Below, piece after piece: positions 2,714-47,574 of a DNA stretch of 64,000 nt (positions are counted from its first letter, which is position 1; each line of letters begins with the position of its first letter). The position numbers and the translations under genes were made by a program. Origin of the DNA: Thuidium tamariscinum (lineage: Eukaryota > Streptophyta > Bryopsida > Hypnales > Thuidiaceae); assembly GCA_947034885.2 (NCBI GenBank), contig OX344754.2, positions 16,944,501-17,008,500 of the forward strand. The letters are read 5' to 3'. The notes under the pieces were generated by a model. The model worked only from the letters and a program-made list of their open reading frames with translations. It was not told the origin of the DNA and searched no databases.

Positions 2714-3013
2714 CTAGGCCGGCATCTCAAACCTGAGGCGTTCTGGAAGAAGACGGTGAAACATGAAGAGCAGCCGCCGGTGCTCGTTTAGAAGCTCCTT
2801 CACGTTGCGGATGAGGTCGGGGAGAAGAGCCTCGGCGCAATTCTGCGTCCAGAAGTCCATCAGCACCAGATCCAACTCTCGTTTCTTGCCGGCGCTCTTC
2901 ACTGCTCGCACGAACTTCAGGGCTGCAACGACCTTCACTCGGCCAGGGTTCATCCCGCAGTGGTCCCGCAAAACCCTCTCCAGACTCGAAAGTCTTTCAT
3001 CGTCTACCCGCAT
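2714..3013 (-). CDS. Small single-PAH-domain (Sin3-like) protein, copy 1
   Basis: The product is 99 residues, nearly all one paired amphipathic helix. Residues about 28-95 match the PAH pattern: a first amphipathic helix (ALKFVRAVKSAG), a middle FWTQ segment, a second helix (DLIRNVKELLNEHRRLL) and the closing LLPERLRF, equivalent to the FLPxxY end of Sin3 PAH domains. In Sin3, PAH domains are nuclear docking sites for repressors that recruit histone deacetylase. No HDAC-interaction region is present here. The ATG is the first in frame. A tract ending in TTGCAG about 25 bases upstream suggests that this is the second exon of a gene with an untranslated first exon. It differs from the 45094 copy at only three residues (D5V, H18Y, V50L). 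The role as a corepressor competitor is inference. Confidence 0.72.
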   Translation of the reverse strand: MRVDDERLSSLERVLRDHCGMNPGRVKVVAALKFVRAVKSAGKKRELDLVLMDFWTQNCAEALLPDLIRNVKELLNEHRRLLFMFHRLLPERLRFEMPA

Positions 3014-3458
3014 CGTGACGTACGACTATGGCCTCTGCTTTCCTGCAACCCAGTTGCCGAATTGCCAAATGGACCGAACAAAGCTGCAAATAAAATTAAA
3101 GAACTTACAAACTTGTAACGAAGACTATTGACAGACTTGTAAGAAAGCTAGAAACTGCCCGGCATTGGGCTGTGCTCTTACAGGAAAGCAGTTTAACCAA
3201 GGAACTGTAGGGGTTCGAAGTAGCGGAGCACTAACGCTTATCCACTGTCTGGAGAGTTCGGGGGAACGCGCGTTTGTCCTGTGATTAACTTGCCACGATC
3301 AGTAGGTTATCGGGATATATCCATAATCTCGGTAATTACCAATAATCTAGACCCAGTAATCAAACTCTGCTTAGTTCTCTTGCAATGCAAGACAGTTCAT
3401 GTCCTCTGCGAACGGTGATCGATCCAGTCAAGCGAATTGGTCGGAGTCAACTCATTTT
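3014..3458 (-). promoter_or_regulatory. 5' region of the small PAH gene (splice acceptor, degraded TATA module)
   Basis: On the minus strand an AG acceptor lies just above the ATG. A GTAAGTTC donor-like site lies near 3110, with exon-like sequence above it. The motif TGTAAGAGCACAGCCCAATG at about 3160-3180 is the counterpart of TATAAGAGCCCAGCCCATTG at 41960-41985, with the TATA core changed by one base. The module appears in all PAH islands, so these genes were probably duplicated together with a promoter. Confidence 0.4.
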
Positions 3459-3720
3459 TCAATTCAATTCACTGCTAACACGAACTTCAACTCTAGATCT
3501 GCTGCGACCTTCGCTCTTACAAAGGTTGCGGCTGGTGTTCGTAGACATTTCTGGAGCTAACTGTTGGGCATGGCGGGCACCAGCCTCAAGCGCGTTGGGA
3601 AGATCGCCATCGCTGGGTGCGATCGTTTGTTTCCCGCTTTCGTGCACGTGTAAATTAAGCAATGCTACGGTAGGGTCGATGAGAATAGCACTGATGCATT
3701 TTGTCTATGGCCGGCAACCA
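3459..3720 (-). pseudogene. Truncated paralogue of the PAH exon at 41040-41597, copy 1
   Basis: The minus-strand reading contains VAGHRQNAS and later LPNALEAGARHAQQL and KSEGRSRSRVEVRV. These line up with the N-terminal part of the 41040-41597 exon (VAGHRQEAA, ... PSEGHCSLQPVLEFMRAV). It stops before a PAH domain. In this unit the frame is broken by a one-base loss near 3680 relative to the second unit, where 87 codons remain open. It is therefore a dead or dying PAH gene remnant between two intact PAH genes. Confidence 0.45.
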
Positions 3721-4458
3721 AAAGTATGCACCTAGTTACAAAACGAGAGATTCAAGGGAAAGAAATAATCCATCAGCAGAAGTCCAGGCATGAAGTAATT
3801 ACAGAGCTTGTCATCTAAGGGTCGCTCAGTTTAGTTCAAGCAAGCAAAGGATACTGATCGAGCTCATGCATACCACCATACCAAAAACCATGTCAGCGAA
3901 GTGAAATCTATAGCAGAGAAAGCATTTAATTGGTCAGACGCGAGTACATATGTAGAACCAATAGGCGGTAGGGTTTACTGACACATTTACTGACAAACAC
4001 TTAAAGAGTTGGAACTCGAATAGACAGATACTGATTCCAACTACCAGAAGTGTAGGAACCTAGCTTAACAGTCCTTAATTAATAAACTCGTTTGCCTGAA
4101 GCCTTTTGTCCAAAGTTTTGCTTTAACCACCCCAAGCTATTCCATAACAATGCACAAAATCAGTACGTTGCTGGCTTTACTTTGAAACGCATACAACAAT
4201 CACAAGACTACATCAAGACATCAAGTGAGCAGACATCAACAATTGCTGCAACTGAAGGAAAGTGGGTTGCCTAAATGCAGAGCATTGGGCAAACAGCAAA
4301 CTTTATTTTGCAAAACAGAAAAGCTCAAGAGAGCTTCTTCAGTGACAACAGCGAGAAACTTCGCAGTCACTTACTGAAACCAGGACGGTGCATGGACCTG
4401 CCCGTGGCAATCTAAACTCTAAAGGCTGATTTTCTCCCAGCCCTCACAAACTCACGCT
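3721..4458. other. Island I spacer without gene signal
   Basis: Moderate-GC sequence, conserved between the two units at substitution level but with small frame-breaking indels (for example at 4292-4310 against 46680). It lies between the remnant and the 3' end of the proline-rich PAH gene. I see no exon I can support. Confidence 0.4.
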
Positions 4459-5127
4459 TCACTGGTAAGCTTGCGGAAGGAACGTCCTGAACGTCACCAC
4501 CAAGTCCGGGTGATCTTCAAGCAACCGCTCCACTCCCGTGATCAGGTCTGGGTATGATCTGGTCACGATCCAGTCCTCCAGCAACGCCGAGAGCTGGCGA
4601 TCTTTGCCCGCGGCCACCACGTCTACCATAAACCTGCATGTCGCAGCTCGCATGGACACACGATCCAGGAGGTGCGCTGGGGCAGGCAGGGGAAAATGTG
4701 GTGGCATGACTTGTTGTCGCCGGGGAACACGAGCTCGGTAATTGTGTGCGTGTGCAGGCGTGTGCATGGGTACACGCAGCGGCAGGAGTCCTGGCCACGG
4801 TACACCGGGGAAGAAATGCGCTGGTGTGGGGATGAAATGCAGCCACGGCCAGGGCACAAACACACAAGGGAAAAGCATTCCCACCATGGGAAAAGGCAGT
4901 GGCGAGGGCCATTGCCAGGGCACGGGAACGAAGAAATAGAAAGGCACACAGAAAAGAAAAGGCCAGGGCCCTTGTGCATGACCTGGGAGGATCGGGGGGC
5001 TATGCATGGTCGGACCTGAAGGCAAGGGCTGCCGAATTGGGAGAATCGGCGGTGTAATCGTGAGCTCCGCGAACCTCTTGATCAGCTCCTCGACTTCCTC
5101 TGTCTCCTTCGCCATGGAATCCCCCAT
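4459..5127 (-). CDS. Proline/aromatic-rich protein with C-terminal PAH domain, copy 1
   Basis: The product is 222 residues from the ATG at 5127. The frame is open for five further codons upstream, to an acceptor-like TGTGTGCAG, so a 5' exon is likely. Order: a short acidic helix (KETEEVEELIKRFAEL); a TPP/ILP linker; a long stretch dominated by Pro with Trp, Phe and Leu (for example PWPFLFCVPFYFFVPVPW); a basic RRQQ patch; then PAH over the last 65 or so residues, with FMVDVVAAGKDRQLSALLED, DLITGVERLLEDHPDL and the ending FRTFLPQAYQ. HPDLxxxFxxFLP is the best family signature in the window. Compared with the copy at 46843 it lacks 21 residues in frame. Binding to Sin3-type ligands is inferred from the domain; the Pro/aromatic region has no assigned function. 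Confidence 0.78.
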   Translation of the reverse strand: MGDSMAKETEEVEELIKRFAELTITPPILPIRQPLPSGPTMHSPPILPGHAQGPWPFLFCVPFYFFVPVPWQWPSPLPFPMVGMLFPCVFVPWPWLHFIPTPAHFFPGVPWPGLLPLRVPMHTPAHAHNYRARVPRRQQVMPPHFPLPAPAHLLDRVSMRAATCRFMVDVVAAGKDRQLSALLEDWIVTRSYPDLITGVERLLEDHPDLVVTFRTFLPQAYQ

Positions 5128-5700
5128 GCTCTGTTCCTGCACACAGTCAAGTTACGTCCCAACCGAAAAGTTGTAAAAACGATGGAGCACACCTGTAGTT
5201 ACAGAGCTTGGCAACGAACTGCCGCTCTGCTTCGGTTAAGCACAAGCCAGGGCAAGCGACGCACAAAAGCCTGTGCACACTAACAACCACGGGGAAAACC
5301 TACCATGTAGCAATTATAATCAGCAGCTTTAAGAGAAGAGCTCCCCCCTGCGAAGAAGACGATTGGCGAGGAAGACGATCCTCCTACTGAGAAGAGCACA
5401 CAAGGATCGGAGCTCGAGTAGTGAGGTAAAGCAGGTTTTGTTATTTTCAATCGCAGTTATCAAGTTCGGATTTTGTCGCTAAACAAGCTCATGAATTTCC
5501 TTGCAAGTTGCTGGCGAACTTGGATTAGACTGCACGAAGATTAGTTGATTCAGGTTCAGATCACACAAAGAGTCTGTCAGTTGAGGTGATCGGCGGAGGG
5601 TGACAGCCGGGAGGCTGCTCACAAATGAATTTGCAAGATTTTTTTTCAAGTGCCACGTGGCGGTATAAAATGTTTTAGTGGTGCTTCATCCAAGCATTTA
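5128..5700. other. 5' flank of the proline-rich PAH gene and island edge
   Basis: It holds the acceptor-like tract just upstream of the PAH gene and a second possible donor near 5195 on the minus strand. The island ends abruptly near 5640-5700 in AT-rich sequence. GAAGAGTCTGTCA followed by TGAGGTGA recurs at the edge of island II (29114) and at 48022, marking an old module boundary. Confidence 0.4.
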
Positions 5701-6989
5701 AATTCATTCAAAATTTAAAACATTCATTCACTTGTATATAGGAAATATCACATTAGCACATATCACATATCACATATCTATGACTTTGTTTTTATCCAGC
5801 TTTTGGCAATTTTATCTAAGATTTTGTTTCTTAATTTAAAGTTTTTGGCAAAACTTTTACAATTATTTGCCATTTCTAATTTATTTTTGAAAAATTAGAG
5901 CTGTGTTAGGTAGGCCAACAAAGGCATCTAAAAGTTTCAATATTTCTACTATAAACATATTCTACACTTCTATTTCTACTTAGAGATAGGTAGAAATTTT
6001 TTATATTTTTTTTGAGACATATAATTGGAGATTTCAATGCACCAAAGAATACATGATTTGGATATCGTTTGCAAAAGTTATGAAGGGTTAAAGTTTTGTT
6101 GTATAGAAGTGTTTTATAATCATTTTTCACAATTTGAATTGGAAAGTAGAAAACTAGAAATTGATTTTAAGAGTAGACTTACACACTAAGTAGCACTTAT
6201 AGGCCTTTGTGTGCATTTGTGTATTCTCTACTTAGCAAGGTTTTGAAGAACTTTTCATTCCCAATTTCCTTTAAAATAAGTGAATGAGAAGAATCTCAGA
6301 ACTCTTTTTTGAGATCACAATTGTTATAGCTCCTAATATGCATGTCGCTTGATACCCCCATACTCGAGGGATCAACTTAACAACATGTATGTTGATCATC
6401 AGAAATTCCTTGAGTAGAACAAATTTTGGACATTTGCTATGATATTTCATGATTTCAAGGTAGATAGACATATCTTGTTTATATAGGTATTGTTCTATAT
6501 AACTAGTTGTCACGTGTGCATTGTTAAAACTATAGACTGAAATGAATGAACATCATTAAATATCACTAACATCATAGGATTTAATATCTAGAGATCTGAA
6601 AGGGCATGGAAGCAACGTTTGATTTCCAACTAGACAACATATCCATTGGGACTTTTCTTCATTCTATTGTATGTCACGTCATTTTAAATGTCATCTATAT
6701 CTTATTTAATGGCTATATGATGTGTAGGTGTATATATGCAAATGAATGAATAATTTTGCCTATGTATTGATTCTCAAGTTTGATGTTTAAGATATAATTG
6801 ACTATCTACATCAAACATGGAAGACCTCAAGAGACAAGTGGAAAACTAATCGGGTGCCATAAAAGTCCTAATTATAAAATTTGCAATCATGAAACTATCA
6901 ATGGTTGTTGAATAGTCATATCTAATCACATTTTGAACTAAACTTGAAAATACATTTGAGACTCATTTCAAAACCAATAATTCATTTAA
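5701..6989. other. AT-rich intergenic sequence, no gene
   Basis: Duplicated at 48110-49440. Short frames exist (for example on the minus strand at 5906-6130, and at 48354-48656 in the other unit), but they are AT-driven, hold no recognisable domain and change length between units. Confidence 0.5.
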
Positions 6990-7397
6990 GGTAGGAGGCT
7001 CTAAAATAGAGCGGGCATTAAGAATGGATTCTATAAAAGGCATTGAAATGGACAATATGTGGTTCTTAAATGGACCTCTATACTCATTGAATGAAATGAA
7101 GATAGGAGCATTGGGAATAGTGAGAGCCAATCATTCTCCTTGCTTTTCCATCTTTTCTTTGAAGTTGCAAGTGAACCACTCATGGAGGATCTAGGGACGT
7201 AAATAGGGACCTACAATACATTTTGTTTGAAAATTCATAACTAATTCAAAAATGCTCCGAAAAATATGAAATCACTTGTATTAGATTCCTCAACTATTTT
7301 TCTTCCTCTGGAAAATGGACTAGAAATATTTTCATTTGTTTAATTACATGAAAAAGGCAGATCAGCCCTTAGATGCTCCATTTCTGAGCCTTCTACC
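6990..7397. mobile_element. 408-bp TTAA element with GGTAGRAGGCTC termini
   Basis: Flanked by TTAA on both sides (6986-6989 and 7398-7401). The ends are GGTAGGAGGCTC on the left and the complement of GGTAGAAGGCTC on the right. The second unit has the empty site at about 49436-49444 with a single TTAA. It is too small to encode a transposase. TTAA targets are used by piggyBac and Kolobok; the termini differ from the CCCCTAAAGG family in this window, so it is a separate family. Confidence 0.75.
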
Positions 7398-7401
7398 TTA
7401 A

Positions 7402-9869
7402 TGAAGAAGTCATTAGATGAAATTTTAGAGAAAGGAAAGACTATTTTGGGGTTGTTCCTTGGTAGTTCCCTATACTATCCAAAAATTGCAAACCAACCTT
7501 GACAGCTTGATTTTTGGAATTTTTTGGAATTTTTTTTCTTAATTTCAAAAATTTCAAAAAGTACTAAAAAGGTGAAAACTAAATTTATTTATTTTTTCAA
7601 GAAATAATGTTTTAAAATTAATTAATTAATTAGTCATTACATTACATGAAAATCTCACATGGCACCATTAGGCATTGGCACAGTTGCATCTACTTATGTG
7701 GCATTGTTCCTAGAATTTCCATAGTCCAAAAATTTGCAATCTCTTCATGCCTTGATTGCCCATAAATTTCATCTAATGGATTGAATAGTTGGAAGATGCA
7801 ATTTAGAGCAATTAGTTGTTGATTTCCAAGTAATCACTATACAATCAATAATTTAGCATACTATTGTAGAAATTCAACCTTTAAAGGACCATTTGTCCCT
7901 TTGAGGAACAACTTGGATCCAACAATACTCCAATAGTTTCTTATTGTATGAATATGAAGTGAATGGATTCAAAACGTTTTGAGAACATGTGGTTTTGAGA
8001 AGGCTTAATGAATATACAATTTTATTTCAATTGGTGCCTTGGAGAAAATGTTGTAGCACAATATAGTAAAAAAAAGGTTGATGGGTAGCTAAAAAATCAC
8101 TAAAAGTCAAAATGATTTTTGAAGGTTCTTCTTATAAAACACTATATTTTTGTCTACATATAAAGCTTTGACTCATTCTATTTGGACTAGTGATGAGAAA
8201 GTCATGGAGAATCTTGTTTTTCAAGCAATCAAAGCAATTTTTTGGAAAAAAAACTTTTTGTCCAATTTTGAATACTAATAATTTCCAATCTATGTAGTCA
8301 AATTTGACAAAAATCAAACCACATTTAAGAAAATGTAACTTTTTAGTAGGAACGTAAATTTAAGAAAATGTAGTACAAGATCCTTTAAATAATATATATT
8401 TTTTGTTTTTTTGGATGAACACAACAAAGTGACAATTTTGATTGATTTTTTCTTATTGGAAATGGCTTTGGTCCTTTAGAAGTAAAAAAACCACAATTAT
8501 CCAATAAGTAATCTATTATATATCCATTTTATAGTGATTGACATAATATTATCGAGTGTGTATTTAATTTTCCTTTGCAATAGGCCTATTGGTGAAGTTA
8601 TCATTCCTTGGTAATTGCAAGAAAGAATTGTCCTATTTTGTGTCACATGTTGGATGCGGAAATTGTTTTATGCTATTAGCATTGCAAAAATAATCAAATG
8701 AATGTGAAATTTGGAATGAAGCTTCTTCAAGCATAAAAGATTTTACTTGAAGTTTTTCAATTTTTTCAAAAATTACAAAGTCAAAGGGATTGGATTTTGA
8801 ATTTATGTCACATATGTGGTTTTTGTGATTTTTAGTACTATTGAGTACTTTTTTTGAAGAATAACATTGTAAAATTAGGTAGGCTAGGTCTTCTAATAGA
8901 ATAACACTTTCTTAGAAGATGGATTACCAAAATCATGTTCCAAGTGACTGTGTTTTATATTGGCTTAAAGTGTGCATTATTTAGATTGAGTTTATATTGA
9001 ATTAAGAAAGTTTTTTTAATTCTAACTTTAATATTCTATCTTTGCCCTTAGTTAGCAACAATGGCCATTTTTAAAATGAATTTTTTAATTTAAGAAAATA
9101 GAAATGCAGAAGTCTCATTCTCAAGTGTAAATTGTAGCATGTGGCTCAAAATAGTATTTCAAGGTACACAAAAAGACTCAATAGTACTAGAAGGGACCTA
9201 TTATGCCTTCAATTTGTTCATGAAATTTTTTTTCAATGGAAAAATTAAGTATTGCCATTCATCCTTGTCATTCACTAATGAACATTACAAGTTGATTAAA
9301 TAGTAGATGTGAAATCCAACAAACTATCTAGATATCATATTCTATACCCCAAATAGTACTAAAGGTGACTTATACTATAAAAAATACAAAAAAGTTGAAA
9401 ATCAAAAACACAACTAATAGTACAAGTGATCCTTGTAATCACCTAATTTGAGACTATACTTGATCATCTCAAATACTAGAAGTATTATAAAGATGTAGTG
9501 AAAACCACCTAGTCTTCAATTCAAAATTCATTATAATAGTGGAATCTTAGACTTTTGTAAAGATACCACTATTGTATCTAAAATGAAATCTAATTTTTTG
9601 CATTACAAGAAATTAAAATTTCATATTAAGCACTCAAAGGAGGGCACTTCCTCCTAAATTTTGCATACACTTGCAATAATGACCTATTTAATTGGGGGCT
9701 ATTTACCTTATAAATTAGATTATAAAGCATGCTATTTTGTAAAATAAAAGTAATTATTGATGTTTTTAAGCATCCTATTGGTTATTATAATTTTTTGAAG
9801 TAATCATTTATAGATGCCCTATTTTATTTATATCCCATTTTTTCTAAATTTCCTATATTCATAAATGAA
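7402..9869. other. AT-rich sequence with a possible decayed TTAA-type element
   Basis: No gene. Between about 7880 and 8485 the ends contain CTTTAAAGGACCATTTG and, on the right, GGTCCTTTAGAAG. These are inverted and similar to the CCCCTAAAGGACC family, and the interior includes a segment resembling the interior of that family (TTTGGACTAGTGATGAGAAAG). It is probably an old member. The same arrangement is present in the second unit at about 49910-50490. Confidence 0.35.
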
Positions 9870-9873
9870 TTAA

Positions 9874-10627
9874 TCCCTAAAGGACCAAGAAACATTTTTT
9901 TGGTAACCTAGCAATTTTAGGTAACTCACTACATATAGAGTTTTTATTTTTATTTTTTGAAATTCTTGCATAATGTGTGTTTGAAGAATAGCTTAAAGGC
10001 TCAATAATTTTCATAAGTTCTGACTATGTGGTTAAAAAGTTATTGTATAATATGTGATTTTTTTTCTTATAAGGAACCCAAGGAATCCAAAAAAAACTTC
10101 CTTAAAAATCACTTTTTGAAAAAATAAAAATTTGAAACTGATTCTTTAGATTTTTATATATACAGTGGATTAGTGGGTAGCATTGAATCATTCTATTATA
10201 ATTAATGAGATGTAAGTTATGAGGAGTTCTAGGGTGCGGATAGGTGTTGAGTCTTTAAAAACCATACTTGTCTACAAACTTGAAGTCTTCATAACTTTCA
10301 TCTCATTAATCATGATGGAATGATTCAAAGCTATCCACTAACTCACATACATATAAATCTAAAGAATTAGTTTCAAATTTTAATATTTTTTAAAAGAGAT
10401 TCTTAAAGAAGTTTTTTGATTGCCTAAGTTGCTCGCCAAGAAATAAAAATAACATATCACACAATAATTTTCTAACCATGTAGTCAAAAGTTATGAAAAT
10501 TATTGGGCCTTAAATCTACTTCTTAAGCACATGTTGTGTAAAAATTTCAAAGAAAGAAAAGTTCCATCTATAGTAAGCTGCCAAAATTGCTACGTTGACA
10601 AAAAAATGCACCTTGTTTTTTTAAAGG
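9874..10627. mobile_element. 754-bp foldback element with TTAA flanks, unit 1
   Basis: TTAA lies at 9870-9873 and 10628-10631. The left end TCCCTAAAGGACCAAG pairs with a diverged right end. The two arms, each over 350 bases, are inverted copies of each other: AGATTTTTATATATACAG and ATGAGATGTAAGTTATGA in the left arm match the complement of the right arm around 10290-10370. The whole element can fold into one hairpin. No coding capacity. A copy sits at the same place in unit 2. Confidence 0.65.
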
Positions 10628-10631
10628 TTAA

Positions 10632-11185
10632 AGAATGATATTGTGTGATACTTATACAATATACACTATAACATTTTTTTTCTTGAAATTCCATTATACC
10701 TCATTTTTTCTTAAGTCCCTAGATTATTGGAGTCTTTCAAGTGAGATATTCTATATAACCTATCTTTTTCCGTATTTCTCTACAATCCTTGAAGTTAGTG
10801 TGATATCATACATTATCTATTCTCTATTTGAATCTTATTTTCTCATAGTCTTGAAATTCTAATCTACTAATAGGCATACTGAACACATATGAACAATACA
10901 AAAAAACAAAAAACAAATTGGAAGCAAATAAAGGCTAATATAAGCATCAATAATGTATGTCAAAGTTTGTGGAACACCAAAATAGCAAACAATTTGTGTT
11001 AAAAGATACAATAAATGATAGAAACAAAGATATTTTATAACCATGAAGACAATACCAAAATCCCTACTGAAAAATTAGAACCCTATATAAAATATACTTA
11101 GTTAGCAAGGTGAAGAGCAATTGTAAGAGAAGAACTCTAAAAACAAATTGAACCTAGGTCATTGAATTTTTCCTTCTACACTTAC
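10632..11185. other. AT-rich sequence, no gene
   Basis: Duplicated in unit 2 (about 52630-53235). I see nothing beyond short AT-driven frames. Confidence 0.5.
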
Positions 11186-13092
11186 TGTAGATAATGTTGG
11201 AACCTATTTGGATTTATCCAACTAATAGTTATGTTCGTTCCTAGGGAGGTTATTAAATAGGATTGTTTCTAAATACACCTAATTGGCCTAAACAAACACC
11301 AAGCATAGACTATTGTTCCCATAGTTTCTTTGATTACTTAATTAAATAAGCTAATTTTAATCAATTTTTATTTCTCAATTTTTATTTATTTATTTTTAAT
11401 TATGCTTATCTTCCAAATTGGATGGCATTTCCTCTTCAATCTGGTCCCAGTCTTTCTCCGACTTGGCCTGCTGCCTCCAGCCTTTTGAACTTCCCAGTTG
11501 GCCGCCTTCACAGGGAACCGATGCTTTCTTTTATTCCACCAATTTGGCTCTGCAACTACTGCTCGCCTTCACTCTCCCGAATTGGATTATAGCAAGGTAA
11601 CTGATTTACTCTTACAATTTGCTTAGTACATTCTTAATCACTGCCCTTCATTACCAACTTGGGCAATCTCACCAACCAAATTGGTTTTGTCTCCTATCAC
11701 TACAACATTAGCTACTTCACCTACCAATTTGGGATTTTGCTCACAGCTCCACAATTTGGTCTCTCATAACTCTGGCAATTACAGAACTTGCATTTGCTTC
11801 TACCCAATTTGGGAATTTCCTTACTCTCCACTTTTTATGCCTTTCTCTCACTTAACTCACTCATAAACTATCATCTTTTTTTACCAATTGCATACACTCC
11901 AACTACCAAATTGGACTCGTAAAATTAGATCACCATACAGCTTCCCTACTTGGCAGCTTAACGCGACAGACTCGCTCTCACAGACCAAATTGGAATTCAC
12001 ACAGACGCACATATCACTTCTTACACGACCAATTCGGACTTGCATTCATACCAACTTGATTTAAAACATAAAATCTCAATTACTCCACATACAACCAAGC
12101 ATAAAATTTCCATCAACTACAACGACACACAACACCAACTGGATATGAATTCTCCTCATATTAATCCAAGTTGGTGACAAATCACCATTATACATATTTT
12201 TATGTCTTTTCCATTTAAACTAATCCTTATCACAATCTTCCCAATTTGAACTTTAAGATTCTACAATTCTACAGCCCATAAACATTGGGAATCTTCCATC
12301 CTCTTAATTCTACAATTTGGCATCAACAAGCTCTGATTCACTCAGTCTCATCTTTCACCTAATCGGTATCCATCACTCACCCAATTAGGACTCACACAGA
12401 CACGATCCAGCCTTGGATCACATACACTTTTAAAAAAAATCTTCCACTCGACAGAGCCATTCACTGGCAAAATCTTCTCCGATTAGGACTCAAGCATGCA
12501 TCCATACAACCATCAAACATCACACAATCACACTCCAAGCACCAACTTGGAAACACAAACATAAAAAACACAACCTTCACCAGCTGGGACTCGCACTCGA
12601 CTCTCTCGTAGTGGGTGAAAACCAAAGCAAAAACAACAACCTAATAGGAGCTAGACGGTAGTTCCCTAACTGCCGAATGTAACTCTCCAAAATTGGTTCT
12701 AACTGCTCACATACCAATTAGGCATTCCAACTGGATTTCATCAAGCAATAATTTCCTACTTGGACTGAGCTACCAAATACTCACCAACTTAGAATTCCAC
12801 CAACTCAGCCAACACCTATTCGGATTTCACACACCCCATCAATACATTCCTCTATCCGATTAGGAATCCAACCCAATTAGGTTGTAAATCAATTGACTGA
12901 ATTGACCACCCTAAATTCCATTTGGATTACAGACTCAAAAATTAACTCCAAACCACACTCATATTAGTAAAAACATACACCAAAAACACCAAATTGGTAA
13001 CCAAACATAACAAAATCATGACAAATACATATACAAAAGCCTCAAAAACCCTCACAAAAAGTAAAAAGTTGAATCCAATTAGGTTATCTACA
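11186..13092. mobile_element. 1.9-kb insertion, TG...CA ends, 5-bp duplication, motif array (solo-LTR-like)
   Basis: The ends are TGTAGATAA and its exact inverse TTATCTACA, and the flanks are CTTAC on both sides (11181-11185, 13093-13097). Unit 2 has the uninterrupted site at about 53231-53240 with one CTTGC. TG...CA ends with a 5-bp duplication are the hallmark of LTR retrotransposon ends, so a solo LTR is the simplest reading. The interior is unusual: 11 exact CCAANTTGG sites (11413, 11539, 11654, 11676, 11724, 11804, 11906, 11985, 12166, 12542, 12989). It also has many one- or two-base variants such as CCAATTAGG (12381, 12714, 12873, 13075), in otherwise unrelated spacer. It is C-rich on this strand compared with its surroundings. 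No long open frame. Confidence 0.65.
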
Positions 13093-13134
13093 CTTACACA
13101 TTCAATCTAGTCATTTGTTTTTCAACTTTGAATA

Positions 13135-13695
13135 GAGTCATTGCAAGAAACACCTTGCAATTTTTGTAGCATTTTGTACAATACCTTTTTTAGGTGAGAG
13201 AATACATTATTATTAGAAAAAAAAATTAAAATAAATATTTCTTGTATGCATTTTTAAGAAGAAGGTATCTAGGAAGTAAAAGCATAAAAGAAATTTCTAA
13301 GTAGGTGAACTACAAAAGTACAAAATCTCATGAAAATTACTACTTTCACATTTTAATTTGTAAAAACTAGGAAAATAAACTAGTAAAGCTAAAAATTGAT
13401 GGTGATGAGTTTTTCACCAAAAGAATGATCTTAGAGCCATCTTCAATGTTTAAAATTTGTGTGCAATGGGAGCTCTATTTGTAATCAAGTAGAAGATATA
13501 AAATAACATGTTTTCAAATTTCCTTTAGAAGATATATGCTTTACTACTATCCAAATAAAAATAATAATTAACATAAAGTTAGACATGTTTAATAAATTTC
13601 TATGTTCATTGGACTTGTGCTTCAAAAGTTATAGTGGACTATAGGAATGTCACCCAGATTGTGACAAAACAGTCTAGGGTTTCTTGCAATGATCT
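13135..13695. mobile_element. Decayed member of the GGGTGATTGCAAGAAACAC family, unit 1
   Basis: The left end is GAGTCATTGCAAGAAACACC and the right end TTTCTTGCAATGATCT, each with one to three changes from the family ends. No clear 4-bp duplication remains. It is shared with unit 2 (53278-53835), so it predates the segmental duplication. Confidence 0.55.
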
Positions 13696-15426
13696 ATTTT
13701 CAATTTTGAAGTATTTATTGGAAACATAATACATAGCTTATCATAATATACTTTGTCTTGATTATGTGCAAAAATTGATTATAAACTATTCCATTCATAA
13801 TTTTGGAGTCTCTAAACTATACTCATTTTTTTCTACTATCCCTTTTGTATATATTGTTTTATAAGTATTGTTCATATAATTTTGTTATATTATACATAAC
13901 TCTATATTACATACAATCATGCTTCATAGTTGTGAAGCACCCTATATTACATGTAATTTGTTTAAGTATTTTGCATAGAATTAAAACATTAGATCCTATA
14001 TTTGATTGCATATAGTTCCTATGTTTTTTGACAATGGCCCCCCCCCCTCCATCCTTTCAAGATTAAGCACCAAGTCACCTGTTAGATGTAAGTAGGTAAT
14101 GAAGAAGACTATTAAGGTATTAGGTGTAGGTGTGTAGCTATACAAGCATCATTGCATTGTTCTTTGTTGCCTTAAGATTTCAAAAGTTTACAACTTGAAT
14201 GGTTCAATTTAAGGTTTTTTATATAGGATGTACACTAATAAATTAATTTCATTTTTATGAAGTTAATTTAAATTTGTAGCATACTTGAAATAGTCAACTT
14301 CAACTCTAAAGCCATGAGTGGTCTCTTTCTATTAGAAAATATATATTATAATATCTTAATTGATCGTCATAATCATGGATTTATACAAGTATTGCTTAAG
14401 TCAATTTAAGTCTCGTTGAGATTGAAGTAGTTACAAATCTTATTATTCTCATAAATATTTTCAAAGTTCTTACTAAATGTCTTTTGGAGAGTTTTTTTTA
14501 TATTATTTAAATTCTTAATCATGGAATCTCGCAATCTTTTTGAAATCTTGAATTACAAAATAGACAACATTGATTTCTACTTCTTTGAAAAAGTACATGC
14601 ATATATAAGCCTATTGGGTGAATTAAACGCATGTTATATTGAGATTTAGAAAGTTGATTGAATATATAAGAAGTATAACTTTCTATTTTGTAAATGCATC
14701 ATTCAAATGATAAGGTTCTTAAAATAAAATAAAAAAGAGTCATACAAATTACATATCTAATTTTTTTTCTTAAGTGAATAACGGCATATTATTTTTAGTA
14801 AAATCTACCACACATAGAAAGTAAAAAACTATATAATGTTACAAAATATATCATGTTTAATTTATACATTTGAATGGAAAATCTTGCAAACCTTTGATTA
14901 TTTAAGTAGAATAAATATCTGAGATAAAATAGATTATTCATTTGATTGAAAGAGATGGAAGGTACTTTTAAGAAAACTACAATCAACCTAAATGACTTCA
15001 AAGTAAGAATATTTGTTAAGAATTTATATTTGATTATGAAATAGAATGAAACAAATGGTTAGAATTCTAATTAATTTCTTTAATTGATTCAAAACAAAAC
15101 AAAAGTAACGTTGAACTCCAATAGTTATGTGTTTTGTATGAAAGTCCCTTGTATTGAACATATTCCTTCATACAAAAAGATAATAGAAACTTTAACCTTT
15201 TCTAATCTCATTTTGGCTCAAATGAGAATCAAAATTCTAGAATCATTTTAAAAACCATAAATTGTTAAATGTATCGTCACATAATGAAGAAAAGAATGCA
15301 AAAGTTCTTCAAGTGGTACTCCTTTGGGAGTTAGGGGTTGAAGTGCACTCATTGTCATTACATAAGCCCTAGCTTTTGCAAGTGATGGATGTCAACATGT
15401 TGCTCTTTTGGTAAATCTCTTATTAA
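13696..15426. other. AT-rich sequence with a C-tract, no gene
   Basis: No gene or clear transposon. A C10 run lies at 14038-14047 followed by TCC; the run is also present, at a different length, in unit 2 near 54176. Short frames at 13803-14015 and 14795-15001 carry no domain. Confidence 0.5.
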
Positions 15427-16357
15427 GCCCTAAAAAAACAAAGTGCTTTTTTTGGCAACATAGAAATTTTGGGTAGGTACGTGTGAATAGAGATTTCCAT
15501 ATTTTGGGACCAAAATTTAATAGAAGGTGTAGAAAAGGAATATCTTTAAGGCCCAACAAACTTTGTGGCTTTTGACTGCATGTTTTTAAAGTTTTTGCAT
15601 GATATGTTGATTTTTTTTCAACTCGGGCTGTCGGGCAGTTTAGGTAGTCTAGAAAAAATCACTTTTTTTGGAAATAGAAATGTGAAATTGGTTTCATAGA
15701 TTTATATGTATGTAGAAAGTTTTGAATCATTCCATTTGGATTAATGAGTCAAAAGTTATGAAGAGTTTTAGTTCGCAGGTAGTTATAGATTCTCAACTCT
15801 AAAAGAATCTTTGAAGTCCTTTATTTTACTCAATTTTCAATATTTTTGAAAAAAAATAAAAACATTAGATGTATATTGTTTATTATAACATTTGAACCAT
15901 TGGGATTGGAAAGCTTCAATTCCAAGAATAAATTCTTAACAATTTAGTATTTTGAATCATTCTCTACTTCTTTCTACTTACTATTTTTTTTGTACATGTT
16001 CAATTCCAAATGATTTGAAAACTTTGAAGCATGTAGCTAACTTGAACTTAAAAATGAATCCAAAGAGTTACAACCATTTTGGACATTTTTTCATACAAAT
16101 GTGGCCGTTTGAAGTGCAGCTACCCAAATTTTTACAGTCGTAAAAAAATAATTTTTGTAACTTCGAACACTAATATCTTGCAATCTACACTGTAGAATTT
16201 TCTGAAATTTTTTCTACATGCTTTCAAACTAGTGCACTAAAAGATCTTATGGTAACATTTATTCCAAAAATATTTTTTTTCTAAAATTTGGTAGCTATCT
16301 TAGAAATGGCAGTTTTAGAATGGTTTTGGTGGAAACATAGTTGCGGTCCTTTAGGAA
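15427..16357. mobile_element. 931-bp piggyBac-like non-autonomous element, unit 1
   Basis: TTAA lies at 15423-15426 and 16358-16361. The left end GCCCTAAAAAAACAAAG and right end GCGGTCCTTTAGGAA are degenerate versions of the CCCCTAAAGGACC terminus. The interior is collinear with 26397-27319, with the unit 2 copy 55549-57208 and with 38197-39218. No transposase frame. Confidence 0.6.
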
Positions 16358-16754
16358 TTAAAGAAGAAGCTGTACTATTGTGGTGATTTTATGGGAAATT
16401 TCATCAAAATAGTGGTATTTAATATAATATTCTTTCATTCATTTTCTTTTTTAGCTTCAAATATAGGATTGTTATAGATTTTATAAGACACTATTTAAAT
16501 GTAAAAGTTCTAAGTTTGTGGAATCTTGCCATTTTAATCAAATGTTGATTTTTTGCATTAGGCCTTGTATTGGTGACATCATTGGATAGCCAATAGAAAA
16601 AATGCATCCAAATGAACAAATTAAAAAGCACTGATTTTTTTTGTTGATTTGGTTGCATTGATCATTAATAGAAATCAACACAAAAGTGTTGATCGTTCTA
16701 TTGACTTGGTCAAATTCAAAAAAATTTAATCTAAGAAAAAATTCTTACAAAACC

Positions 16755-16960
16755 CATTACAAGAGAATGGGGTCTTTTAAGTGGTATCCTAGACATCATG
16801 TCTTTAAATAAAGTCTTTTAATGTGTCTTTTAAGTAAAATTTTACTGAAAAGATAGTCTTTTTAGTAAAATTTTATTTAAAAGGTCTACACATTAAAAGA
16901 CATTACTTAAAAGACATGATGTCTAGGGCACTATTTAAAAGACCCCATTCTCTTATAGTG
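16755..16960. mobile_element. CACTA-type palindromic MITE, unit 1
   Basis: The ends are CATTACAAGAGAATGGGG and its near inverse, with flanking ACC duplicated on both sides (16752-16754, 16961-16963). The interior repeats TCTTTTAAGT-type blocks in both orientations, so the whole 206 bases form a hairpin. The ends match the CACTACAAGA terminus of plant CACTA transposons and the 3-bp duplication fits that superfamily. Confidence 0.75.
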
Positions 16961-17496
16961 ACCTAAGTAAAAAAAAAATTGGGATTGCTTGAAATACACT
17001 GGTAGAAAAAAAAAAGATTCAACCTCAACCCCAAATTTGGGTCCATTGGTTGAAAGATGCTCACAAGATTCAAATCCAAGACCTCAAGCCTACAAGTTCA
17101 ATGCCCTAAACCACACTTGTGTTCTTTAGATTCAATAGACTCTGGACTATTTGGAGGTCATTTTGACATAGCAAATTAACTTTTTTCAAAAAACTTTGCA
17201 CTTAAAAAAATTGGGTAATCAAGTTAATTTTCATCTGTAGAACACCTTCTTATATTTTGAGCTTCCAATCAAAAATTATGAACAAAATTTAAAGTAGATA
17301 TTTGAAAATATCAAAAGAATTTCCTTTCAATTCTCTCTCAACTTTGTTGATAAATTTTGATTTGAGGCTCAAAATATAAAATAGATTTTTGGAGATGAAA
17401 ATCAACTTGATTACCCAACTTTACATAGTTCAAAGTTTTTTGAAAAGAAGGTTATTTTATTTTGTCCAAATGGACGCCAAAGTCTATTGATTTGGA

Positions 17497-17720
17497 AAAC
17501 ATTGAATTGTAAATGATTGAGTTAAAAAAAAAAATTTCATTGAATGTAATAGAATTTCAATGTTTTTGTTTTAATTTAAGCATGCGGAAATCTTATTTCA
17601 AACACTTGTAAATTAGAATTTTCTATTGTATTGAAAAACATTGAATTGTAAATGATTGAATTGAAAAATAATAATATCATTGAATGTAATAGAATTTCAA
17701 TGTTGTTGTTTTAATTTAAA
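17497..17720. repeat. Direct repeat of about 136 bp, two units
   Basis: AAACATTGAATTGTAAATGA, followed by the same 110 or so bases, occurs twice in tandem (about 17497 and 17632). The duplication is also present in the second segmental copy (about 58311-58540), so it is older than the segmental event. Confidence 0.7.
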
Positions 17721-17857
17721 CATGTGGAAATATTTTTTTGAATGCTTGTAAGTAAAAATTGTATGCTTATAGTATGTATTTCAAATTTTGGAATTATGTT
17801 AATAATTTAGTTGAAAGTATATATTTAAAGAATTTTTAACCAATTAATTGGGTTTAT

Positions 17858-20261: not shown

Positions 20262-20265
20262 AACA

Positions 20266-39218: not shown

Positions 39219-39222
39219 TTAA

Positions 39223-41039: not shown

Positions 41040-41597
41040 CTAATCGTTCTCTCGATTGATCTCCGATGATTCCGATCCGGCCTCATCAGGCATCCTGAAC
41101 TTGAGATGTTCCGGGAAAATAGCGTTGAACATGACAAGCAGCCGTCGGTGATTCTTCAGAAGCTCCTTGACGTTGTGGATGAGGTCGGGGATGTGAGCCT
41201 TATCGCACTCCTGCCTCCAGAAGTTCATCAGCAACCGACCCAACTCTGGTTTCTTGCCGGCGCTCCTCACTGCTCGCATGAACTCCAAAACGGGCTGAAG
41301 GCTGCAATGACCCTCGCTCGGACAGAGCTGCGCCTGGTGTAGACATGCCCGGAGTAGAATATCGGGGTCTCCACTCTCCGCCTGCTGTAAACATGCCTGT
41401 AGTAGAATGTCGGGGTCTCCACTCTTGAACGCCGCGGATAGATCCGCATTGTTGCAACTGTGGCCTCGATCCGCTTTCCTTAACGCAATAAAAGCCAATG
41501 CCGAATTTACCAGGGTGAGATCGGTACAAATTACAGCTGCTTCTTGTCGGTGGCCAGCAACAACTTTATATACACAACAAATTGATAATAGAAACAA
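41040..41597 (-). CDS. PAH-domain protein with 16-residue tandem repeat (3' exon)
   Basis: The frame is open for 185 codons, but there is no in-frame ATG before the PAH region. The true start is therefore probably in an upstream exon, for which a promoter and GTAAG donor are visible at 41888-41984. Order: VAGHRQ-containing N-terminal part; two tandem copies of a 16-residue unit (SGDPDILLQACLQQAE and SGDPDILLRACLHQAQ); PAH over about residues 101-168 (VLEFMRAVRSAG, DLIHNVKELLKNHRRLL, FPEHLKF); then an acidic tail (DEAGSESSEINREND). The same N-terminal part without a PAH occurs at 45848-46111. The role as a nuclear PAH adaptor is inferred from the domain only. Confidence 0.62.
   Translation of the reverse strand: MFLLSICCVYKVVAGHRQEAAVICTDLTLVNSALAFIALRKADRGHSCNNADLSAAFKSGDPDILLQACLQQAESGDPDILLRACLHQAQLCPSEGHCSLQPVLEFMRAVRSAGKKPELGRLLMNFWRQECDKAHIPDLIHNVKELLKNHRRLLVMFNAIFPEHLKFRMPDEAGSESSEINREND
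41347..41442. repeat. 48-bp tandem repeat inside the PAH exon
   Basis: Two in-frame 48-base copies, recognisable by ATCGGGGTCTCCACTCT and TGTCGGGGTCTCCACTCT, encode the duplicated 16-residue unit. Coordinates are approximate to a few bases. Confidence 0.65.
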
Positions 41598-42331: not shown

Positions 42332-42639
42332 CAGACTGGTTTTGAACTTGATTTTAGTTGTCTTACTGACAACTCAGACAATCGAAGGCTCGAACAGGAA
42401 ACCACGAGATAGGATCGGATGAGACAATGAATCAGAGAGGACATTGATGTACATAATCGGTCGTGAACTCGTAAGTTTGCGAGCACAAGAGAATTTAATA
42501 TTTAATCACAAGTAAGGAAATTACAAAGGAAGGAGTGCCTGGGAGGCACCCCGCTAGCTATTGGTCAGTTTAATTACTTGAGAAAATAGAGTACTGGTAC
42601 TGTCTTGTACATGCAATCTGCCACTGGAAAATCTCTACG

Positions 42640-42790
42640 CTAGATGCTTGATTGTGGAGCGAAGTACTGCCGGAGTTCGTCTCTACATTGATGTGCACCG
42701 CTCGCCATAGCTGCGGATCAAATATTGAAGCATTGCATCAGTGATACCAAACTCTCTAACCTACTCCCAAGATTTCGTGACGCACATCTA
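42640..42790 (-). pseudogene. Probable relic of a PAH exon, unit 2
   Basis: Counterpart of 309-480. The segment reading YLIRSYGE is followed by an 8-base deletion relative to unit 1, then an early TAG. Decay has thus continued after the segmental duplication. Confidence 0.3.
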
Positions 42791-44477
42791 GCAAGAAATG
42801 GAAATCAAAGGCAGGCCGGGACAGCAGAAAAAACGACAGAGAAATGTAACTGACGATGATATTCGAGCTGACAAAAACAAAACAAGCTCTGACTTCCATT
42901 CCACAGTAATCCATACCACCCACACCATAGCTCACATCATTTACCACAAAATGTCCTCACCTGGAAGAACATCCTCGCTACGGTAACAGGTTTACACCAG
43001 GAGTCGCGTACCAGAGCAGCGGGATCGATCTTGCTAGCTATGGTAGCTGGCTCACCAGCGCCAATTGATTACGGCCCAACCTTCAAGGTCGACAGGGCAT
43101 CGCCCTATAAGAACACGGAAAATGACGAGCTTTTTCCTCTCCGCCCAAGGCATCCAACAGCAAATTAACACACCCGTCATCACTGCAGCTCACAGCTAGC
43201 TAGCTCCCCTGGGGAAAACCCGCTAGCATAGTCGTAATTGCAACAACAGGGTACTGATGGTGTTGGAAGCCTTTGAGGGAGAAAAACAAACCCTTGAATG
43301 TCTAGCTTGGCTTCTTCGTCTTCAATTCTTCGCAACCATCCGGCCACACACTCTACTCACTCAATTAATCTCCCAGATACTGAGATACTGAGATCGATTC
43401 CCAGATACTGAGATCGATTCTGCAAGAGTAGCCCATGACTCCGCACCGCCAGACTGGTACGTCGATTAATGAACTCCATACAGCTACTGCTTTGGAGAAG
43501 AACACAGGCACAGATACAAAGTCACAAACAGAAACTGTGGACGTATTTGTGAAGCTCACATACACAAGCTAGCTACCATTTCGACCCACGCATCGCTAGC
43601 TACCAGTGCATTTCGACAGCCCCATCCCGGGCAACATCAATGTTGAAATCAGAAGTCTAGCTCCGCCGGCAAGAACACTCAGACGAAAACGTGCTATTTA
43701 GGTATCAGACAGTGCCGCTGCAGGGAAGAAGGAAGTGAACTCAAGATGCAACCCAAGGCAGATGGAGTCCAGGATGGAGCCCAAGCCTGGAGCTAAGCTT
43801 GGCCCAAGATTGAGTCTCAAGAGGAAGCCCACTGCAAGTGCTCGCAAGTGTTGTGATGCAATGAGAGTTGCTCCCGCGCGTTTATATACATAATTGCACT
43901 GGCCCAGGGCGGGCTGCCAAGACGTACGCCGAGAGTAGGCTACAGGGAAGTTACGGAAGTCAGCGAGGTGGGTACCGTCGGCCCATTATAGAGATCGCAA
44001 GAGAAAACTCTTAAGATCTTTTAGTAAGAGATAACTCTTAAGATCTCTTAGTAAGAGGTAACTCTTAAGATCGTTTAGTGTACTAACTGATACGGAGTGA
44101 GTATCCAACGCACTCAGATTAATTAACTGCACACTAAACTAGCGCGCTACAGTCTACACGGTGCACCTTATGCAGTAGGTGCACTTTGAATTGTTCCCGT
44201 CATTCTAAGCTAGATTCTAACTCGATCTTCGAGCAGTTATATCCTTCGGATTTTCGGGCACCGTGAACTTGAGCTTCACCGGGAGATACTTGACGAGTCC
44301 CGAGCAACTCTCGGTGCCCCGAGGTCGGGCCGACATGACAGCCTCCACACACTTGCGCCACCAATGAAGCCGTTTTACTTTCTGATACTTAATATAAGCA
44401 AATGCCGGTTGGTGTCATGTCAGTTGGGTTACCCAAACAGGAAATAAAAACAAGAATTAAAAAGAACCAGTACTTAC
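42791..44477. other. Island I' leader and spacer, no supported CDS
   Basis: Counterpart of 481-2106. Differences from unit 1 include a duplicated GATCGATTCCCAGATACTGA block near 43390 and extra copies of AACTCTTAAGATC near 44030-44060. Such repeats and frame differences argue against coding sequence. Confidence 0.45.
43881..43888 (-). promoter_or_regulatory. TATA box on the minus strand, unit 2
   Basis: TATATAAACGCGCGGGAGC on the minus strand, identical in the core to 1569-1576. Confidence 0.5.
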
Positions 44478-44593
44478 CCAAGTGCTGGGATCGGTCACAG
44501 AGTTCGAGAGTTGGTCAACAAAGGGTTGCTCTGGATTTCATTGTTCAAGCATGGTTAAGTTCAGCGAGTTCTTGTGCTCAACTTGAGCTAAGC
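44478..44593 (-). pseudogene. 117-bp exon, copy 2, broken
   Basis: Same acceptor and donor as 30280-30396, but one base is missing near the acceptor and LEQLNPEQ reads LEQ-stop-NPEQ (TTA to TGA). The donor GTAAGTAC is kept. Confidence 0.4.
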
Positions 44594-45093
44594 CTACAGC
44601 AAATAAAAACTAACTTCCATCAGGATGGAAGAAAAGCATTACTTTCATGAGCGAGGTTTCAACAGAGGAGGGTAACAATTATCCAACTAGCTTATTCGTG
44701 AGCTTTCCAAGCAGCCTTTACTTTCCGGCTGTATGTACTCCAAACAGAAAAGAGAAATTATACAAGAGTCAAGCAGGAATCAAGCACCAACATTGCACAT
44801 GCAACTGATGAACATGGGAGAAGAGATGAACAATCAGAAAGCAATCAACAGACTACAACAGTTAACAAGCAAGTGCAAAAAGAATGTCTGCAGGAACTAC
44901 ACTCATTCTACAAGCGCACATCAAATTGAGGAAGCTTTAATGAAGCATATAAAACTCCATGTGCTTTCCAGTTCTCCAAACTGATCTTAAAAACAGAAAA
45001 CGATCTACTGCACTTCACAAAAAGTCAGTGCATGCGGCAAGTTTCCATCTACATTATGTATCAGCGAGAGACAATTCGGGAAGTCCTAGCTAA

Positions 45094-45393
45094 CTAGGCC
45101 GGCATCTCAAACCTGAGGCGTTCTGGAAGAAGACGGTGAAACATGAAGAGCAGCCGCCGGTGCTCGTTTAGAAGCTCCTTCACGTTGCGGATGAGGTCGG
45201 GGAGAAGAGCCTCGGCGCAATTCTGCGTCCAGAAGTCCATCAGCAACAGATCCAACTCTCGTTTCTTGCCGGCGCTCTTCACTGCTCGCACGAACTTCAG
45301 GGCTGCAACGACCTTCACTCGGCCAGGGTTCATCCCGCAGTAGTCCCGCAAAACCCTCTCCAGACTCGAAAGTCTTTCAACGTCTACCCGCAT
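45094..45393 (-). CDS. Small single-PAH-domain (Sin3-like) protein, copy 2
   Basis: The product is 99 residues; residues about 28-95 form a complete PAH domain (ALKFVRAVKSAG ... FWTQNCAEALLPDLIRN ... LLPERLRF). It has the residues (V5, L50) shared with copy 3 where copy 1 differs, so it is closer to the ancestral form. Its acceptor-like TTGCATTGCGCACAG upstream is ten bases longer than in copy 1. Neighbours are as in island I: the broken exon downstream, and the truncated paralogue and proline-rich PAH gene upstream, all on the minus strand. Confidence 0.74.
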   Translation of the reverse strand: MRVDVERLSSLERVLRDYCGMNPGRVKVVAALKFVRAVKSAGKKRELDLLLMDFWTQNCAEALLPDLIRNVKELLNEHRRLLFMFHRLLPERLRFEMPA

Positions 45394-45847
45394 CGTGACG
45401 TACGACTATGGCCTCTGCTTTCCTGTGCGCAATGCAACCCAGTTGCCGAATTGCCAGATGGACCGAACAAAGCTGCAAATAAAATTAAAGAACTTACAAA
45501 CTTGTAACGAAGACTATTGACAGACTTGCATGAAAGCTAGAAACTGCCCGGCATTGGGCTGTGCTCTTACAGGAAAGCAGTTTAACCAAGGAACTGTAGG
45601 GGTTCGAAGTAGCGGAGCACTAACGCTTATCCACTGTCTGGAGAGTTCGGGGGAACGCGCGTTTGTCCCGTGATGAACTTAATTGCCACGATCAGTAGGT
45701 TATCGGGATCCATAATCTCGGTAATTACCAATAATCTAGACCCAGTAATCAAACTCTGCTTAGTTCTCTTGCAATGCAAGACAGTTCATGTCCTCTGCGA
45801 ACGGTGATCGATCCAATCAAGCGAATTGGACGGAGTCAACTAATTTT

Positions 45848-46111
45848 TCAATTCAATTCACTGCTAACACGAACTTCAACTCTAGATCTGCTGCGACCTT
45901 CGCTCTTACAAAGGTTGCGGCTGGTGTTCGTAGACATTTCTGGAACTAACTGTTGGGCATGGCGGGCACCAGCCTCAAGCGCGTTGGGAAGATCACCATC
46001 GCTGGGTGCGATCGTTTGTTTCCCGCTTTCGTGAACGTGTAAATTAAGCAATGCTACGGTAGGGTCGATGAGCACTAGCACAGATGCATTTTGTCTATGG
46101 CCGGCAACCAA
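45848..46111 (-). pseudogene. Truncated paralogue of the island III PAH exon, unit 2
   Basis: 87 codons remain open. They begin VAGHRQNASVLVLIDPTVAL, include LPNALEAGARHAQQL and end in VEVRVSSELN just where the paralogue at 41040 enters its PAH domain. There is no ATG at the frame start, so it is an exon fragment. It could still encode a PAH-less fragment if spliced, but the unit 1 copy is frameshifted and I treat both as pseudogenes. Confidence 0.45.
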
Positions 46112-46842
46112 AAGTATGCACCGAGTTACAAAATGAGAGATTCAAGGGAAAGAAATAATCCATCAGCAGAAGTCCAGGCATGAAGTAATTACAGAGCTTG
46201 TCATCTAAGGGTCGCTCAGTTTAGTTCAAGCAAGCAAAGGATACTGATCGAGTTCGTGCATACCACCATACCAAAAACCATGTCAGCGAAGTGAAATCTA
46301 TAGCAGAGAAAGCATTTAATTGGTCAGATGTGAGTACATATGTAGAACCAATTGCAGGCGGCAGGTTTACTGACACTTTTACTGACAAACATTTAAAGAG
46401 TAGGAACTCGAATAGACAGATACTGATTCCAACTACCAGAAGTGTAGAAACCTAGCTTAACAGTCCTTAATTAATAAACTCGTTTGCCTGAAGCCATTTT
46501 CCAAAGTTTTGCTTTAACCACCCCAAGCTATTCCTTAACAGTGCACAAAATCAATACGTTGCTGGCTTTACTTTGAAACGCTTACAACAATCACAAGACT
46601 GCATCAAGACATCAAGTGAGCAGACATCAACAATTGCTGCAACTGAAGGAAAGTGGGTTGCCGAAATGCAGAGCATTGGGCAAACTTTATTTTGCAAAAC
46701 AGAAAAGCTCAAGAGAGCTTCTTCAGTGACAACAGCGAGAAACTTCGCAATCACTTACTGAAACCAGGACGGTGCATGGACCTGCCCATGGCAATCTAAA
46801 CTCTAAAGGCTGATTTTCTCCCAGCCCTCACAAACTCACGCT

Positions 46843-47574
46843 TCACTGGTAAGCTTGCGGAAGGAACGTCCTGAACGTCACCACCAAGTCCGGGTGATCT
46901 TCAAGCAACCGCTCCACTCCCGTGATCAGGTCTGGGTATGATCTGGTCACGATCCAGTCCTCCAGCAACGCCGAGAGCTGGCGATCTTTGCCCGCGGCCA
47001 CCACGTCTACCATAAACCTGCATGTCGCAGCTCGCATGGACACACGATCCAGGAGGTGCGCTGGGGCAGGCAGGGGAAAATGCGGTGGCATGACTTGTTG
47101 TCGCCGGGGAACACGAGCTCGGTAATTGTGTGCGTGTGCAGGCGTGTGCATGGGTACACGCAGCGGCAGGAGTCCTGGCCACGGTACACCGGGGAGGAAA
47201 TGCGCTGGTGTGGGGATGAAATGCAACCACGGCCAGGGCACAAACACACAAGGGAAAAGCATTCCCACCATGGGAAAAGGCAGTGGCGAGGGCCATTGCC
47301 AAGGCACGGGAACGAAGAAATAGAAAGGCACACAGAAAAGAAAAGGCCAGGGCCCTTGTGCAGGACCTGGGAGGATCGGGGGGCTATGCATGGTCGGACC
47401 TGAAGGCAAGGGCTGCCGAATTGGGAGAATCGGCGGTGAGGGCAAGGACGCTGCAGGCGTTGCGCTGTTGCTGCTGCCATCAGGAACTCTTGTAGGCGGT
47501 GTAATCGTGAGCTCCGCGAACCTCTTGATCAGCTCCTCGACTTCCTCTGTCTCCTTCGCCATGGAATCCCCCAT
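46843..47574 (-). CDS. Proline/aromatic-rich protein with C-terminal PAH domain, copy 2
   Basis: The product is 243 residues from the ATG at 47574. It is the longer form: it keeps the 21-residue segment around PDGSSNSATPAASLP that copy 1 has lost. Order: acidic helix (KETEEVEELIKRF), Ser/Pro linker, Pro-Trp-Phe-rich region, Arg-rich patch, PAH over the last 65 or so residues ending FRTFLPQAYQ. The PAH part appears unchanged from copy 1, while small changes fall in the Pro-rich part. An acceptor (TGTGTGCAG) lies about 18 bases above the ATG, indicating a spliced 5' leader. No localisation signal is obvious; a nuclear corepressor-related role is inferred from PAH. Confidence 0.78.
   Translation of the reverse strand: MGDSMAKETEEVEELIKRFAELTITPPTRVPDGSSNSATPAASLPSPPILPIRQPLPSGPTMHSPPILPGPAQGPWPFLFCVPFYFFVPVPWQWPSPLPFPMVGMLFPCVFVPWPWLHFIPTPAHFLPGVPWPGLLPLRVPMHTPAHAHNYRARVPRRQQVMPPHFPLPAPAHLLDRVSMRAATCRFMVDVVAAGKDRQLSALLEDWIVTRSYPDLITGVERLLEDHPDLVVTFRTFLPQAYQ

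Follow-up and report, generated by a model that had tools for sequence, protein, structure and literature searches.

A duplicated block of single-PAH genes in the moss Thuidium tamariscinum, possibly encoding competitors of Sin3

In a window of 64,000 nucleotides from the moss Thuidium tamariscinum (GenBank assembly GCA_947034885.2, contig OX344754.2, forward-strand positions 16,944,501 to 17,008,500; all positions below are counted within this whole stretch), five intact open reading frames and one broken relative, all on the minus strand, each carry one core of the PAH type. These are genuine PAH-type cores, nearest to PAH1 of Sin3, and the cluster is one block present three times (two copies incomplete in view), not the product of six separate events. 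Sin3 is described in the cited passages as binding transcription factors through its PAH domains, often via short helical motifs, and as carrying HDAC on its HDAC-interaction domain, HID (PMC4914931, PMC7948954). Among the roles considered for the proteins encoded here, we rate competing with Sin3 for ligands as the likeliest, with a probability of about 0.4, and we tentatively regard the locus as a group of small PAH-only genes evolving by birth and death. The six frames and their single cores lie where the original prediction, made from the letters of the stretch, had put them.

Three frames encode proteins of about 100 residues consisting of little but the core, i.e., smA (2714..3013, stop included, 99 amino acids, unit A), smC (30893..31195, 100 amino acids, truncated unit C) and smB (45094..45393, 99 amino acids, unit B); smA and smB share 97% of their amino acids, smC and smB 88%. 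Two further frames are rich in proline and aromatic residues and have the core at the C-terminal end, i.e., prA (4459..5127, 222 amino acids, unit A) and prB (46843..47574, 243 amino acids, unit B), and a single in-frame 63-bp indel makes up their difference in length. The sizes of the small frames and the proline-rich nature of the two others had been foreseen correctly. Stop codons sit directly after the PAH core in these frames, and an ATG-to-stop frame is kept in five of the six copies. Putative introns in the 5' untranslated region, their splice sites judged by eye, were placed on the minus strand at 3043..3108 for smA (66 nt, GTAAGTT ... TTGCAG) and at 5137..5303 for prA (167 nt, GTAGG ... 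TGTGCAG). The alignments show the GTAAGTT donor to be common to A, B, C and D, and the putative prA intron to be followed by 9 nt and then the ATG, with identical donor and acceptor letters in prB. An AATAAA motif lies downstream of both prA and prB. A G-box-like CCACGTGG stands at 5653-5660, upstream of the putative first exon of prA, and its counterpart at prB reads CCACCTGG.

The PAH assignment is carried by sequence profiles and predicted structure. The Pfam PAH model (PF02671, curated cut-off 21.3 bits) recognizes prA (4462-5127) at E 2.3e-5 and 24.5 bits and prB (46846-47574) at E 2.9e-5 and 24.1 bits, both of which pass, and the frame of the broken copy D (41043-41621) at E 0.0015 and 18.6 bits, under the cut-off; scanned singly, three of the six cores match PAH at E<=10. 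A joint profile of the six cores gave 12 matches at E<=1 in the PDB, 11 of them to the Sin3 family, with Sin3B PAH1 at the top (E 2.2e-6) and mammalian PAH1 constructs as the best hits. The original prediction had staked its case in part on a significant PAH hit, and such hits are provided by prA and prB above the Pfam cut-off and by the joint profile. Within the six-sequence set, blastp connects the small and the proline-rich proteins at E 4e-4 to 3e-8 across about 60 amino acids. The predicted folds of both forms contain the four PAH helices (PAH/alpha-alpha-hub), and PAH and harmonin-homology structures fill the first 14 of 16 rows of structure matches for the small form and the first 21 of 34 for the proline-rich form before the Z score drops. 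For the small proteins, homology is thus borne out by the joint profile and the four-helix PAH fold by the predicted model, where smB has, besides the core, one further low-confidence helix. This helix spans residues 3-18, N-terminal to the core; in prB, the segment N-terminal to the core begins with an acidic stretch (residues 1-25), and the protein's middle stretch of 150 amino acids holds 26% Pro, 7% Phe and 4% Trp.

A Sin3 scaffold with several PAH domains, HID and a C-terminal region is not what these frames encode, as each has one PAH. The Pfam scan took in 30 of the 83 window frames of at least 80 amino acids, and among these 30 neither HID nor the Sin3 C-terminal domain was found, in agreement with the predicted lack of any other Sin3 region; above the curated cut-offs only PAH and one DDE_1 transposase appeared. 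When 2063 six-frame segments of at least 20 amino acids were searched with a profile, which the six PAH frames match by construction, no additional PAH frame emerged, the next best match having E 1.7. Searches for relatives, seeded by short peptide patterns in viral and prokaryote collections only, from which the window's own genome may be missing, confirmed no relative by profile among 45 pattern matches in viral contigs and 162 in prokaryote genome contigs, nor any for prB among two pattern matches in viral contigs; the model of the proline-rich core had 39 matches at E<=10 in a viral structure library and none at E<=0.001.

Self-comparison of the window revealed a segmental duplication, with copy A (1..21051) aligning to copy B (42332..63527), neither being assigned a strand, in eight hand-picked collinear blocks that total 18281 alignment columns at 91.8% mean identity; the two copies carry different insertions. 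The pairs smA/smB and prA/prB are the outcome of this single event, with a period of 42.3 kb. On the minus strand the order within the block is pr, sm, D, and all three are present in unit B, the expected position of D in unit A being beyond the window edge. Unit C (29272-31664) is truncated; it contains smC followed on the downstream side by a D-like gene of which the 5' region is left, and no pr frame belonging to it was found by the profile search of six-frame segments within the window. This remnant of a second D (29272..30037, minus strand) is 90.9% identical to 41820-42576 and comprises the 5' region alone, the similarity stopping before the coding part of D. The block was copied at least twice, once giving rise to the truncated unit C and once to units A and B. 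Of the tandem family that had been proposed, duplication stands, and separate tandem copies give way to one duplicated block; six independent tandem copies are ruled out by the block-wise self-alignment.

Alignment of the broken copy D (41040..41449 on the minus strand, open frame 41040-41621) to smA, smB and smC shows similarity in the upstream part, with D preserving the PAH core as well as the ATG and the GTAAGTT donor. Between ATG and core it has a net 57 extra nucleotides that would preserve the frame and whose placement varies with the alignment, followed by 11 nucleotides immediately before the PAH core that break it. Owing to this 11-nt insertion, translation from the homologous ATG at 41449 halts at a stop after 60 codons. 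In the open frame the first ATG comes at residue 115 of 193, a position that in the alignment falls within the first PAH helix modeled for smB. A 48-bp tandem repeat at 41331-41425 is the source of the 16-residue repeat that had been ascribed to this frame, and is read outside the ATG frame; the repeat is thus real, and an intact protein containing it is ruled out by the late ATG and the frameshift. Where at least two broken relatives besides the six frames had been expected, we found D itself, one of the six, and the 5' remnant in unit C, and the six-frame profile search brought up none beyond these. A segment at 3759-3844 is 70% identical to 41608-41697 over 90 columns; at smA it lies upstream of the promoter-like region, and at D between the promoter-like region and the coding part, which suggests that the 5' region may have been rearranged in one lineage.

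Similarity among the three units is mosaic. Informative sites from 2700 to about 3460 (eight bins) comprise 77 that group AB|C, 6 AC|B and 6 BC|A, and those from 2200 to 2700 (five bins) comprise 26 AC|B, 9 AB|C and 9 BC|A; the four bins under 2200 contribute hardly any information (4, 2 and 1 sites). This switch of grouping near the stop codon points to gene conversion or unequal exchange. The rapid turnover with decayed copies proposed at the outset is supported by the duplication, the broken D, the D remnant and this mosaic similarity.

We postulate that both the small and the proline-rich proteins are produced and enter the nucleus, where their four-helix cleft would take up amphipathic helices of transcription factors. 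Since the HDAC-interaction region is missing from them, they would act as competitors of full-length Sin3 for its partners and weaken Sin3/HDAC repression, much like a trans-microProtein, with the proline-rich form perhaps acting as a longer variant of the same decoy. At 11.7 kDa each, smA, smB and smC fall within the microProtein size range of 7-20 kDa given in the cited passages (PMC6003976). A more specific version, i.e., a fast-turnover locus of decoys for Sin3 partners in which each unit pairs a bare PAH protein with a proline/aromatic-rich one, we consider clearly unlikely; in it, repeated duplication and exchange would alter the dose and specificity of Sin3 competition in the lineage.

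Several results weigh against competition with Sin3. The Pfam search proposed for the six frames succeeded for prA and prB, D stayed below the cut-off, and smA, smB and smC had no PAH match (frames at E<=1, the smB core alone at E<=10). Searched by itself, smB reaches Sin3B only at E 0.32, with two thioredoxin-like chains at 0.75. The proline-rich proteins, at 25.4 kDa (prA) and 27.3 kDa (prB), exceed the microProtein range. Knock-down of the short mouse isoform Sin3b-202 is described in the cited passages as bringing no gain in BMP4-dependent transcription (PMC4914931), and therefore calls for caution in assuming a decoy effect. Pairwise codon models gave ratios of nonsynonymous to synonymous divergence (dN/dS) of 0.50 for smB/smC (p 0.14), 0.61 for smA/smC (p 0.27), 0.31 for prA/prB (p 0.20), 0.63 for smB/D core (p 0.26) and 0.79 for smC/D core (p 0.56), so that dN/dS = 1 was rejected in none of the five within-family pairs; the original prediction had counted such an outcome across the copies against itself, and for the five pairs tested it is what we see. 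The differences between smA and smB are three nonsynonymous and no synonymous. These ratios favor a somewhat unlikely alternative, namely that the genes are mostly non-functional, recent decaying duplicates kept open by youth and sequence exchange without any selected role. It also fits the frameshift in D, the second D without a coding part and the near-identity of smA and smB, which reaches into non-coding flank. However, the PAH signature is still alignable to animal and fungal Sin3, and since the core matches Sin3, long-term selection has acted on it, although this concerns the long term and not today's copies. The comparison of the smB and prB cores does reject dN/dS = 1 (p 0.001), but dS there is at saturation and the model fit is degenerate, and we give it little weight. 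The coding sequences of prA and prB differ at 5 of 666 sites, and the flank at 5.2-7.0 kb at 118 of 1768 aligned sites (Fisher p 1e-11), which also speaks against mere decay. Nevertheless, these differences fall on codon positions 1, 2 and 3 as 2, 1 and 2, and synonymous divergence is 0.019, well under that of the 5' flank; because third positions show no more change than the other two and the 3' flank is also quiet, homogenization fits as well as constraint, and we do not accept the low divergence as proof of selection on the protein.

A rather doubtful alternative is that the proteins are adaptors, in which a transcription factor would dock at the PAH core and a different partner would be recruited by the proline/aromatic part of the longer form, or by another surface of the small one, so that they would add a function instead of blocking Sin3. 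The 150-residue stretch and acidic N-terminal segment of prB are consistent with this, as are the occurrence of PAH outside Sin3 in plants, where the Arabidopsis NLR At4g12020/WRKY19 includes a PAH domain (PMC5067614, PMC7948954), and the recruitment of co-repressors by certain microProteins (PMC6003976), both as described in the cited passages; the small proteins, however, offer little more than a PAH core and one low-confidence extra helix. Finally, the frames could be the last exons of larger, Sin3-like genes of several domains whose other coding exons lie upstream, and a splice-acceptor-like CAG does stand close before the ATG in both forms. We find this most improbable, given that the start ATG is common to all small copies and D, and likewise to both proline-rich copies, that the sequence upstream of the small-gene intron is only 66-73% identical to the D 5' region, as untranslated sequence might be, and that the 30 scanned frames gave no other Sin3 domain.

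Among known systems, the Sin3 PAH domains (PF02671, nearest PAH1) resemble these proteins in sequence profile and predicted four-helix fold, whereas the Sin3 scaffold differs, as both forms hold one PAH and no HID or C-terminal domain in the scanned frames. The Arabidopsis 'paired amphipathic helix repeat-containing' genes AT1G23810, AT1G27270 and At1g24200, which do not belong to SNL1-6, probably encode short PAH-only proteins. The Sin3 homologues of that plant are the six SNL (PMC9266683), and many PAH proteins are described as holding just part of the Sin3 domain set (PMC7948954). In the cited passages AT1G23810 is listed with eight other transposed genes that long repeats flank, having an 80-bp direct repeat, and AT1G27270, beside it in the table, is read by us as its parental gene (PMC2869330); At1g24200 is mentioned for its higher expression in AvSAMS1 plants under aluminum stress (PMC5099669). 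The likeness to our locus is that of mobile PAH genes, but no proline/aromatic-rich or ~100-residue form appeared among the matches listed. Selaginella is represented in the cited passage by one named PAH-repeat expressed sequence tag (PMC1184070). Mouse Sin3b-202 is similar in having PAH domains without HID and no HDAC binding (PMC4914931), but according to the same passages it is produced by splicing and contains at least two PAH domains, unlike a set of distinct genes with one PAH each. SIN-3 of C. elegans has one PAH domain and yet, as described, retains HID and is hence a Sin3 scaffold (PMC9217932, PMC5902990). microProteins are likewise small proteins with a single interaction domain, akin to larger proteins (PMC6003976), but they inhibit the complexes of a parent, whereas here the likeness is one of sequence and size and the proline-rich form is too large. 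Literature on single-PAH microProteins or on a proline-rich single-PAH family was absent from the matches listed.

Across the window, GC content in 2-kb bins is 26-35% in 23 of 32 bins and 42-50% in the other nine, eight of which are islands with PAH genes and one of which holds the transposase. The latter belongs to an insertion of about 2.4 kb that copy B carries at 59351-61798 and copy A lacks, its empty site lying near 18530; the insertion has inverted ends CACTAA.../...TTTAGTG and TA at both sides (judged by eye). Its 320-residue frame matches DDE_1 at 59893-60855 (Pfam E 8e-11), and we take the element to be pogo/Tigger-like. Members of a transposon-like family, about 725 bp long and with GGGTGATTGCAAGAAACAC at the ends, occur at 19533-20259, 56108-56836, 33887-34609 and 35584-36306, with one copy in A alone, where an apparent CAACA repeat flanks the insertion, another in B alone, and those at 34 and 36 kb 95% alike. 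An inverted repeat (25053-25420/25680-26047) has 368-nt arms, 94% complementary and separated by 259 nt, and its region is also 68-69% identical to the ~725-bp family at 34 and 36 kb. A bacterial-code scan of the window found no tRNA. The intron-like structure and the PAH domain make an origin from phage or bacteria improbable, and the sequence is probably that of a plant-like nuclear genome.

Mobile PAH genes were already known; what this cluster contributes is the bare form of about 100 residues, the proline/aromatic-rich form and the view of their turnover. At present, the locus extends the PAH genes known to be mobile in Arabidopsis by one local expansion that includes a minimal ~100-residue form. 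Should the small and proline-rich proteins indeed bind Sin3 partners, it would represent a natural cluster of genes through which Sin3/HDAC repression is tuned by dose, and would offer a compact system in which to follow the evolution of free docking domains into competitors.

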